Source: a virus. From it: a stretch of 24,141 nt of DNA. The stretch lies in the IMG/VR virus record IMGVR_UViG_3300013123_000783, positions 1 through 24,141 of that record, one strand, 5' to 3'. Within the stretch, counting starts at the first letter, position 1; each line of letters begins with the position of its first letter. A program made the position numbers and the translations under genes. The notes beneath the pieces are model-generated. The model did no database searches and was not told the origin of the DNA. It saw nothing but the letters and a program-made list of their open reading frames with translations. Below, one piece after another: positions 4,001 to 13,623 of the stretch.

Positions 4001-4483
4001 CTACCCTGCCTTTCTTTTTTGCCCACTGGACGGGCTTTTGCCGGTGAGCAGCTCTATTGCCGCCGCCTGGGTGCTTATGGTTTGTATTTGCGCGGCTATA
4101 ACCTGCTCTTTTGCGGCAATGATGCTATCTTTAAGCGCACAGGCCTGGCATTTTACCGGAGACGGCTCTCCTTTTTCGACAACTAACTCAATAGTATCGC
4201 TAACTTGTGCATTCACCTGTGCATTTACCTGTGCATTTTCATAAAAAAATATGATAGGTTCCTTACCCAAAAATATGTATCCAGGATTAACCGGATAATT
4301 AATAAATAATTTCTGTAATAAATCAGCGCTTGTATTTGTCCTAAACTTCAATATTTCTGTAAAAGATTGAGGAGTTAGACCCATTTTTAAAGCAAAATCA
4401 GTATTATTTTTAATTAATTTATTTTTTTTCAGCAAATTAAACACCTCTACAAACCGCTTATTTACTATGTTTTCAGATTTCAT
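4001..4483 (-). CDS. Phage repressor-like HTH protein
   Basis: 160 residues from the ATG at 4483. An upstream ATG in frame (4591) would run through the operator and is unlikely. The N-terminal 60 residues form a lambda-type helix-turn-helix (RFVEVFNLLKKN, DFALKMGLTPQSFTEILKFR), then NYPVNPGYIFLGKEP, a linker typical of Bacteroidetes prophage repressors. Residues about 79-90 are three tandem NAQV units from a 12-bp DNA repeat. The C-terminus (ALKDSIIAAKEQVIAAQIQTI) is a probable coiled coil for oligomerisation. The gene is divergent from the early operon, with a palindromic operator between, as expected for a lysogeny regulator. Target and inducer are not visible. Confidence 0.75.
   Translation of the reverse strand: MKSENIVNKRFVEVFNLLKKNKLIKNNTDFALKMGLTPQSFTEILKFRTNTSADLLQKLFINYPVNPGYIFLGKEPIIFFYENAQVNAQVNAQVSDTIELVVEKGEPSPVKCQACALKDSIIAAKEQVIAAQIQTISTQAAAIELLTGKSPSSGQKRKAG
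4207..4240. repeat. 12-bp tandem repeat inside the repressor gene
   Basis: Nearly three units of TGTGCATTYACC, encoding NAQV NAQV NAQV on the minus strand. Unit gain or loss keeps the reading frame and would change the length of the linker between the DNA-binding domain and the coiled coil. Confidence 0.75.
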
Positions 4484-4514
4484 AAAAAATAAATTAAAAA
4501 TTTCTGTAAAATAA

Positions 4515-4545
4515 TTTGGAAATACAGAAATTCTGTATATTTTTG
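4515..4545 (+). promoter_or_regulatory. Early rightward promoter with embedded operator
   Basis: TTTG (4515-4518), 19 bp spacer, TATTTTTG (4538-4545): a full match to the Bacteroidetes promoter. A perfect palindrome with 8-bp arms around one central base (ATACAGAA A TTCTGTAT, 4522-4538) fills the spacer and touches the -7 box, so a bound repressor would exclude RNA polymerase. A further TTTCTGTAAA half-site lies at 4501-4510 towards the repressor gene. Start of transcription is expected near 4552, just before the ATG at 4569. Confidence 0.7.
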
Positions 4546-4568
4546 TAGCAAAATAATTTACAAAGGTA

Positions 4569-4805
4569 ATGCAGAAAAGTTCAAAAGTCAAATATGAATA
4601 TGATTACCCTGAAAACAGGGCGATAGCAGCCCGGCTGACGATGTTTGAGAAAAAGGAGATAGCTAAGCGGACTGGATACAGCTTATCATACGTGATAATG
4701 TGGAGCCGCGGAATGCGCCGGAGCGCTGTGATAGAAAAAGCAGCGGAGCTGATGACGGAGGTGATGGATTTCAGGGAAAAAAAAGCGGAAGAGATTACTG
4801 TATAG
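4569..4805 (+). CDS. Small HTH DNA-binding protein (Ner/Cro-like position)
   Basis: 78 residues, first gene of the early operon, starting about 17 bp from the predicted transcription start. The centre, MFEKKEIAKRTGYSLSYVIM followed by WSRGMRRS, reads as a helix-turn-helix with a basic recognition region. The C-terminus is a charged helix. Position directly opposite the repressor matches Ner of Mu and Cro of lambdoid phages, which shut down the repressor and early promoters. That role is inferred from position and fold only. Confidence 0.65.
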   Translation: MQKSSKVKYEYDYPENRAIAARLTMFEKKEIAKRTGYSLSYVIMWSRGMRRSAVIEKAAELMTEVMDFREKKAEEITV

Positions 4806-4835: not shown

Positions 4836-5102
4836 ATGAAAATACTATTCCATACAACGGCAGGCGAACGGAAACCCGGCGAAAAGATATGGCTGAAAGG
4901 TTACCGGCGACCATGGGTAATAATGGGCGAAGATAAAGGACTGGTGAAGGCAAGGCACAGTTTAACGGGGTGCATTATCTGGCTGAGCCCGGGATGGAAA
5001 TGCCAGTATGAGAATAAGGAAATGGAGCAGACACTTGGATTGTCCTCCCCCTGCCCCCTCCAAAGGGGGAAAAAAGCTGAAACAACTGGATTGTCGAACT
5101 AA
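4836..5102 (+). CDS. Hypothetical early protein with palindrome-derived C-terminus
   Basis: 88 residues with no recognised family. It is basic and rich in Gly and Trp (GERKPGEKIWLKGYRRPW, GCIIWLSPGWKC). The last part, LSSPCPLQRGKK, is the in-frame translation of a palindromic repeat (5044-5070), so the ancestral protein was probably shorter at its C-terminus. It lies 30 bp after the HTH gene in the same direction. A TTCGACAAGCTCA fragment (4807-4819) in the gap resembles a widespread bacterial repeat half. Confidence in coding is moderate because the reverse-strand frame is also open. Confidence 0.5.
   Translation: MKILFHTTAGERKPGEKIWLKGYRRPWVIMGEDKGLVKARHSLTGCIIWLSPGWKCQYENKEMEQTLGLSSPCPLQRGKKAETTGLSN
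5044..5070 (+). repeat. Palindromic element copy 1 (in frame in a CDS)
   Basis: Family layout: lead-in CCTCCCCCTG, then CCCCCT, a 4-nt loop, and AGGGGG followed by A. This copy is complete and is translated as SSPCPLQRG at the C-terminus of the 88-residue protein. Confidence 0.85.
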
Positions 5103-10964: not shown

Positions 10965-11038
10965 GCTCCGGTGGGCAAACGGGTTAAGCCGCTACCCTTT
11001 CATGGCAGAAATTGCGGGTTCGAACCCCGCCCGGAGTA
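10965..11038 (+). tRNA. tRNA-Glu (anticodon TTC)
   Basis: Acceptor GCTCCGG (10965-10971) pairs with CCGGAGT (11031-11037), including one G-T. D-stem GGC/GCC (10974-10976 with 10988-10990). Anticodon stem CTACC/GGCAG has one A-C mismatch around the loop CTTTCAT (10997-11003), with anticodon TTC at 10999-11001. T-arm GCGGG-TTCGAAC-CCCGC (11014-11030) is perfect. The discriminator is A and no CCA is encoded. The anticodon mismatch and short D-stem make it less canonical than a chromosomal tRNA. It lies inside the early operon on the same strand. Confidence 0.8.
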
Positions 11039-11058
11039 CGGAGATAAGTTAAAATTCA

Positions 11059-12600: not shown

Positions 12601-12663
12601 ACGCTAACTAAGAGCTAACGCGCGTTTTAATGCGCTGTTAGCGGGAGTTAGCAGCGTTTTTTT
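12601..12663 (+). terminator. Branched intrinsic terminator-like structure
   Basis: Outer stem ACGCTAACT (12601-12609) pairs with AGTTAGC-A-GCGT (12646-12657). It encloses a second hairpin, GCTAACGCGC (12614-12623) with GCGC-T-GTTAGC (12632-12642). A run of seven T (12657-12663) follows. The repeated GCTAAC/GTTAGC motif also builds the leader at 12944-13098. Confidence 0.65.
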
Positions 12664-12909: not shown

Positions 12910-12938
12910 TTTGCTTTTTAAATTTTGTTGTATATTTG
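12910..12938 (+). promoter_or_regulatory. Promoter of the antirepressor leader
   Basis: TTTG (12910-12913), 17-bp spacer, TATATTTG (12931-12938): full consensus. The expected transcription start is about 12944-12946, which is the first base of the leader's pairing segment A. Confidence 0.75.
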
Positions 12939-12943
12939 CCCTC

Positions 12944-13098
12944 GCTAACATAGTTAATCAGGGGTAAATTCCTTGAAGTTTAAGAAATATCCCGGATGGA
13001 GGAGTCCGCAAGGCCCTCAACCCTTCAAGCCCTGCTTGACTGTGTTAGCACATCCGGGGTTATTTATTAATTAAAATTTATTTATTATGCTAACACAG
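12944..13098 (+). ncRNA. Structured 5' leader, candidate RNA switch over the antirepressor start codon
   Basis: About 143 untranslated nt precede the ATG at 13087. A (GCTAACATAG, 12944-12953) pairs with A' (CTGTGTTAGC, 13040-13049). A' extended by one base also pairs perfectly over 11 bp with A'' (TGCTAACACAG, 13088-13098), which includes the start codon's TG. B (ATCCCGGATG, 12989-12998) pairs with B' (CATCCGGGGT, 13051-13060). C (CTTGAAG, 12972-12978) pairs with C' (CTTCAAG, 13023-13029). A small hairpin TCAAG/CTTGA spans 13025-13039. A:A' and C:C' are mutually nested but cross B:B', so alternative folds exist. In one, the start codon is free; in another it is buried. Confidence 0.6.
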
Positions 13099-13623
13099 AA
13101 AAAAAATGAGGTTATGAACCTCACTGTGACTGAAGGTCTGACAGTCTCAATCATTCCAAGTTCAGATCATGAATATCTAATCCCTTCAACAGACGTAGCC
13201 ATTGGCTATGGTATTAGCAGAACAACTCTTCGTAGACACCTTCAGGAACATGGAGATGAGCTTAATGAAGGAAAGCATTTTATCAAGGGTGTTCATATTT
13301 TGAACACCCTTGTCAAAGGCGTGCAACCTAATACTACCTTTTGGACGAAGCGTGGCATTGTCCGTCTTGGGTTTTTTATCAAGAGCGAGCGGGCGCGACG
13401 GTTCAGGGACTGGGCGGAGGATTTGGTGATAGCGACGGTAACCGGCAGGACCTCCCCCTCGATCCCCCTCCAGAGGGGGACAAGCCTGCACCAGGTGCAT
13501 GGCGGATTTAACCGGCTTACGCCGGCGCGGCTGGTTGATCTGCTTGCCGACGTATGCCTGGTTGATGACCCGGATCTGCGCCAAAGGCTGGTGAACAAGT
13601 TAACGGGGAGGGCTGCCCTGTGA
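13087..13623 (+). CDS. Phage antirepressor-like protein
   Basis: 178 residues. The N-terminal half (YLIPSTDVAIGYGISRTTLR, EGKHFIKGVHILNTL) followed by TKRGIVRLGFFIKSERARRF and RDWAEDLVIA matches the N-terminal domain of BRO/ORF6N-type phage antirepressors, whose hallmark is a hydrophobic 'G-L' strand then A-x-x-FRDW. Such proteins interfere with repressors or bind DNA. A palindromic element is translated in frame after residue about 121 (TSPSIPLQRGTS). The C-terminal part (LVDLLADVCLVDDPDLRQRL) is helical. A 12-bp-arm hairpin (13284-13312) lies inside the coding region. Its own promoter and a long structured leader set it apart from the rest of the early operon. Confidence 0.7.
   Translation: MLTQKKNEVMNLTVTEGLTVSIIPSSDHEYLIPSTDVAIGYGISRTTLRRHLQEHGDELNEGKHFIKGVHILNTLVKGVQPNTTFWTKRGIVRLGFFIKSERARRFRDWAEDLVIATVTGRTSPSIPLQRGTSLHQVHGGFNRLTPARLVDLLADVCLVDDPDLRQRLVNKLTGRAAL
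13284..13312. repeat. Perfect 12-bp-arm inverted repeat inside the antirepressor gene
   Basis: CAAGGGTGTTCA (13284-13295), 5-nt loop TATTT, TGAACACCCTTG (13301-13312). It encodes KGVHILNTLVKG. It would form a stable mRNA hairpin or a protein-binding palindrome about 200 bp into the coding sequence. Confidence 0.85.
13451..13480 (+). repeat. Palindromic element copy 6 (in frame in antirepressor CDS)
   Basis: CCTCCCCCTCGAT, then CCCCCT, loop CCAG, AGGGGGA. Translated as TSPSIPLQRGTS between the conserved FRDW domain and the C-terminal helices, so it acts as an inserted linker. Confidence 0.85.

Follow-up and report, generated by a model that had tools for sequence, protein, structure and literature searches.

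The stretch analysed here, called the window, spans a virus record of 24 kb (24,141 nucleotides) in which the leader of an antirepressor gene carries segments complementary to each other and to the start of that gene. The question raised by this locus was whether the leader is a regulatory RNA and, if so, how it could control synthesis of the antirepressor. The phage was recognized as Mu-like by a MuA-type transposase (PHROG 310), a MuB-like AAA ATPase, Mu Gam and a portal protein, and the promoter type and its relatives place it in Bacteroidota. A nucleotide search for close relatives among phages returned chance matches only, and the MuB-like protein gave no yield as bait for relatives. The antirepressor ORF matched Pfam PF02498 (Bro-N) with E=2e-5 and 25.4 bits, just under the cut-off of 25.6, and four PHROG anti-repressor families with E=2e-5 to 4e-4. 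A divergent HTH-type ORF at 4001-4591 on the minus strand, with weak PHROG matches only, may encode the repressor of the phage.

Other features of the window were recorded. Palindromes of the CCCCCTCC-AAAGGGGG type recurred at 5047, 8395, 9291, 10935, 13455, 13742, 20556, 20890 and 22910, several of them within ORFs or at ORF ends, the antirepressor ORF included. A tRNA-Glu (TTC) gene at 10965-11039 in the phage early region directly followed one of these elements. A run of 18 G at 83-100, near the contig end, is possibly an assembly artefact.

The elements of the leader and the gene behind it were located as follows.

12910..12938, plus strand: promoter of Bacteroidota type, TTTG at 12910-12913 and TATATTTG at 12931-12938 with a spacer of 17, from the sequence
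12944..12963, plus strand: A, target copy at the 5' end (seqA-like), pairing with A'
12987..13064, plus strand: Rfam c4-2 match (RF02944, clan CL00128) below the gathering cut-off, 28.6 bits against 41, E=7.9e-4
12989..12998, plus strand: B, 5' strand of the stem closing the antisense hairpin, 10 bp with B'
12998..13018, plus strand: inner hairpin 1 (GGAGGAGTCCGCAAGGCCCTC), from the fold; aligned by cmscan with inner hairpin 1 of c4-2
13030..13050, plus strand: A', antisense segment (seqB-like) with its core at 13040-13050, complementary to A and A''
13051..13060, plus strand: B', adjoining A' directly and forming the 3' side of the closing stem, from sequence and fold
13060..13086, plus strand: U-rich tract 3' of B' and AU-rich region ahead of the start codon, a possible intrinsic-terminator tail
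13087..13623, plus strand: antirepressor gene, Bro-N type, 178 aa, from PF02498 and the PHROG anti-repressor families
13088..13098, plus strand: A'', downstream target copy (seqC-like), spanning the last two bases of the start codon (UG) and codons 2-4, pairing with A'

From 12931 to 13098 the order was thus A, B, A', B', U-rich tract and A'' over the antirepressor start codon, and every segment named in a preliminary description of this DNA (promoter, A, A', A'', B and B') was recovered at its position. A' formed a perfect 11-bp duplex with A'' (13040-13050 with 13088-13098), as had been described. The pairing of A with A' was also present, and the 10 bp given for it proved too short: 14 bp including two G-U pairs were found (12944-12957 with 13036-13049), reaching 19-20 bp past one mismatch (12959-12963 with 13030-13034), with a duplex energy of -30.8 kcal/mol. 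B and B' paired over 10 bp with one G-U (12989-12998 with 13051-13060), followed by the U-rich tract, and this helix crossed both A:A' and A':A'', again in agreement with the preliminary description.

Transcription probably starts at about 12942-12945, and a TAnnTTT[G/A] element was present just 5' of A, at the equivalent position, in 16 of the 17 homologous leaders described below. A sigma-70 promoter scan was set aside as unsuited to Bacteroidota promoters. Six of the first 8 bases 3' of B' in the window were T, and the same interval contained at least 4 T in 10 of 13 tabulated loci; the U tract was weak in L026, L027 and L080. Termination of transcription at B/B' and the U-rich tract is predicted from these features. 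A AGGGGCAAA-like stretch was located just 3' of A at 12959-12966 and was conserved in L018, L025, L031 and L037. It was complementary to the segment ahead of A' and to the promoter/start TTTGCCC(C), and may in addition fold into a 5' hairpin presenting A.

The combined score for the three helices and a start codon within A'' was 35 in a 460-base stretch of the window, which was reached in 0 of 150 dinucleotide shuffles; a score of at least 31 was reached in 0 of 3000 pooled shuffles over 20 loci. The plain minimum free energy (MFE) of the leader was unexceptional (z = -1.55), because a nested fold cannot contain both crossing helices, and this z-score was dropped as uninformative for such helices. 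When the leader was folded up to 13068, the two forms were nearly isoenergetic, at -41.7 kcal/mol with A:A' and -39.4 kcal/mol with B:B', and with B:B' formed the core of A' was largely unpaired or looped. The two forms were similarly balanced at several other loci, and some loci strongly favoured A:A'.

Homologous leaders were sought by collecting proteins related to the antirepressor or to Gam and scanning the surroundings of their genes for the leader architecture. The same architecture, in unrelated letters, was found at 16 further loci: L005, L018, L023, L024 (Flavobacterium), L025 (Bacteroidales), L026 (Winogradskyella), L027 (Maribacter), L030 (Prevotellaceae), L031 (Prolixibacteraceae), L033 (Dysgonomonas), L037, L045 (Chitinophagaceae), L080, L084 and L096, the last with two tandem units. 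The shared plan consisted of a TAnnTTTG promoter, A where the transcript is expected to begin, a B..B' stem with A' next to B', a U-rich tract and A'' over an AUG. The targets were antirepressors of two different families, Bro-N or AntA, or a small ORF overlapping the antirepressor start (L005 and L096), while the ORFs behind the L023 and L080 leaders belonged to no convincing family. The contig of L037, binned with an Aliivibrio MAG, carried a typical Bacteroidota promoter and leader and is probably mis-binned.

On the minus strand of L096, at 590-1170, two tandem leader units were located ahead of an AntA antirepressor. The units had a common scaffold, and A, A' and A'' were all altered together, giving each unit its own specificity. 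Behind the first unit, the ORF was only 36 aa long and resembled the start of the ORF of the second unit.

A strict scan, which required the promoter and the start-codon register, gave 7 matches in 1.08 Mb and 0 in shuffled sequence, all 7 directly 5' of antirepressor genes or their coupled ORF; this scanner missed the window itself, where the A/A'' anchor is offset by one base. The leader was absent from 8 of 17 related Bacteroidota Bro-N loci and from 4 of 7 AntA loci (L028, L029, L032, L038, L039, L043, L046, L047, L095 and L097-L099) and is common but not universal at such loci. Two loose-scanner matches in L097 (scores 39 and 34, minus strand, AT-rich) had neither promoter nor antirepressor context and were not counted.

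Covariation in homologues, which the preliminary description had proposed as a check, was found for all three helices. MAFFT alignment of the divergent leaders put the stems out of register, so no covariance model was built on it and a swap test was used instead, in which the A, A' and B segments of each locus were set against the A', A'' and B' segments, respectively, of all loci. Across the 17 loci, most of which came from a scanner that rewards complementarity, true and off-diagonal energies were -29.4 and -12.4 kcal/mol for A:A', -14.7 and -7.4 kcal/mol for A':A'', and -20.0 and -11.2 kcal/mol for B:B', respectively, and for each helix 0 of 100000 permutations attained the observed mean. 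The true A:A' partner ranked first in row and column in 17 of 17 loci. L027, L030, L037 and L045 were found by protein homology with their segments read by position, and A:A' also ranked first in these; L080 entered the set through the c4-2 covariance model. In L030 the A':A'' pairing was only weak and failed the A':A'' test. The three pairings exist, exceed chance and co-vary over the 17 loci.

G-U pairs accounted for 35 of the 384 A:A' pairs in the 17 loci. In about nine loci an A:A' pair was retained as G-U where A'' has C, and such retention where A and A'' differ speaks for RNA pairing over DNA repeats. With few exceptions among the 17 loci, the A':A'' duplex started exactly at the U of AUG and ran into codons 3-5. 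Shine-Dalgarno sites are generally missing in Bacteroidetes (PMC3155529). Covering the start codon and not a ribosome binding site would therefore be a plausible adaptation to such hosts.

To place the leader among known RNAs, 601 bases around it were scanned against 4227 Rfam families. The C4 model (RF01695), also suggested in the preliminary description, gave no match in the window at gathering, nor around the leader at E<=10 with overlapping clan members reported once; the clan relative c4-2 did match, at 28.6 bits and below its cut-off of 41 bits. A genome-wide RF02944 search matched exactly four of these leaders (L026, L027, L030 and L037), at 21.9-39.3 bits and likewise below the cut-off, and L080, with its long A:A', reached 48.3 bits. 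The antisense element is recognizably related to c4-2. Both share a closing stem, an inner GAAA-type hairpin, the antisense and a CCUAA-like element ahead of B', and both are found in Bacteroidota. Both also begin with a promoter and a target copy, followed by the antisense, a second target copy and the start codon, and the antisense of the window is flanked by targets as at c4-2 loci. In true c4-2 loci the antisense co-varied with both flanking targets (23 distinct loci, 0 of 100000).

There were also differences. The c4-2 antisense is bipartite (variable loop and UAGGA), whereas that of the window is one contiguous stretch of 11-20 nt; the downstream c4-2 target lies mostly just ahead of the AUG, whereas A'' lies over the start codon; and the usual c4-2 target gene encodes a protein of about 77 aa of unknown function instead of an antirepressor. 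This conserved protein (MSTNTLSKETELRLxxFFNNSIDPxxMAKTIRQVNY...) was encoded directly 3' of c4-2 RNAs in loci L054-L083 and had no match in Pfam, NCBIfam or PHROG. c4-2 was present in 9 of 346 Bacteroidota genomes, usually in several copies each, and each copy had its own antisense and target letters.

As positive controls, P4 CI and P1 C4 scored 74.9 and 68.8 bits, respectively, against RF01695, and both had one target copy 5' and one 3' of the antisense. The layout of the window is therefore the known P4/P1 plan, and the different layout claimed in the preliminary description was mostly wrong. As in P4 CI, a 5' target, an antisense in a stem-loop and a 3' target stand on a single leader, in the order A-A'-A'' corresponding to seqA-seqB-seqC. 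P4 CI immunity works by premature termination (summarised in PMC4825925); unlike the window, P4 CI has a bipartite antisense (CTGTGAA, TTCTCAC), an RNA made by processing and no antirepressor target. In P1/P7, synthesis of the antirepressor is controlled by C4, an antisense RNA that pairs close to the start region (PMC8546580, PMC12197685). C4 likewise has targets on both sides and an antisense acting at the start region, and in the window A'' lies at the translation start (AUG) of the Bro-N antirepressor. However, C4 of P1/P7 has a bipartite antisense, a ribosome-binding-site target, a processed 77-nt RNA and a host with Shine-Dalgarno sites. The window differs from P4 and P1 in its contiguous antisense, the pairing from the U of AUG, the U-rich terminator-like B/B' and the phylum.

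Two further systems were compared. In IsrK-orf45-anrP of Gifsy-1, a short terminated RNA and a long mRNA come from one promoter, and a small ORF is translationally coupled to the antirepressor (PMC4825925); the target ORF overlapping the antirepressor start in L005 and L096 resembles this coupling. The sar RNA of P22 blocks translation of the antirepressor (ant) by antisense (PMC12197685), and by the description in that review it is an asRNA on the ant mRNA without the leader arrangement of the window.

The leader of the window is probably a phage immunity RNA of the C4 (P1/P7) or CI (P4) kind in a Mu-like Bacteroidota phage, a reading to which we give a probability of roughly three in four. 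A constitutive-looking promoter would give a transcript beginning with A, followed by the stem-loop B..A'..B' and the U-rich tract. Polymerase stopping at this tract would release a short RNA in which B:B' closes the stem and A' is displayed. The released RNA would pair in trans with the A segment of newly made transcripts, at their 5' end; with A occupied, the transcript's own A' would not be held by A, B:B' would form and transcription would end early. The released RNA, or A' in cis, would also pair with A'', and with the start codon and codons 2-4 covered no antirepressor would be translated. When no RNA has been released, nascent A would capture A' (about 20 bp), B:B' would be disfavoured and the start codon would stay free, allowing the antirepressor to be made and the lytic cycle to start. 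Antitermination by A is a kinetic assumption; A:A' and B:B' can be sterically compatible as a pseudoknot. The preliminary description had proposed that an antisense of C4 type controls an antirepressor in another phylum and that A and A'' compete for A'; this idea is supported by the 17-locus covariation.

A switch acting only in cis, as the preliminary description had it, is unlikely but the most serious competitor. No free RNA would exist, B/B' would be just one part of the fold, and A and A'' would compete for A' within one molecule; all three segments do lie in one transcript, and A:A' and A':A'' do compete directly. A pure cis switch, however, needs no change of specificity, whereas the letters of A, A' and A'' differ in the 17 loci and between the tandem units of L096, and this diversification argues for action in trans. 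The U-rich terminator-like ends and the C4, CI and IsrK relatives also point to a released RNA, so a released trans-acting RNA fits better.

The repressive sign assumed for that RNA is not certain, as the related IsrK acts positively, increasing the translation of anrP by about 140-fold in trans (PMC4825925), opposite to the repression predicted here. That the RNA of the window likewise switches the antirepressor on, by sequestering A or by making the start region accessible, seems improbable: A' covers the start codon itself, nothing else hides the start region in the folds, and pairing in trans to A should free A' in cis to block A'' and allow B:B'.

It is more doubtful still that A, A' and A'' are repressor operators in the DNA (GCTAACA/TGTTAGC) with incidental complementarity. 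Repeated half-sites are typical of operators, and four more GCTAAC/GTTAGC copies, the core of A, A' and A'', were found at 12603-12652, in and just 5' of a terminator upstream of the leader; these could be chance, decoys or operator-like. Operators would not account for the covariation of B:B', the A:A' pairs kept through G-U, the register on the U of AUG or the match to the c4-2 covariance model. A plain transcription terminator with chance repeats, which B/B' and the U-rich tract resemble, can be dismissed, as 0 of 3000 shuffles reach the score and the 17-locus covariation refutes it.

Antirepressors under antisense control are known in a small number of enterobacterial elements (P1/P7 and Gifsy-1), and the immunity of P4 relies on the same RNA plan. 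The same logic would now extend to Mu-like and other Bacteroidota phages and prophages, adapted to hosts that are generally without Shine-Dalgarno sites. As a broader proposition that could go either way, such RNA switches may be widespread in Bacteroidota phages and prophages: an antisense released by attenuation would act both on the nascent 5' end, causing termination, and on the start codon, with the U-of-AUG register as an adaptation to translation without Shine-Dalgarno sites; the fast-diversifying A, A' and A'' would define RNA immunity groups; and orphan c4-2 would be the same machinery driving the unknown 77-aa protein. The unexplained c4-2 family also gains a testable target model. 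Since the letters of the antisense are directly legible, it could be predicted from sequence which prophage should block which, and hence which immunity groups exist.
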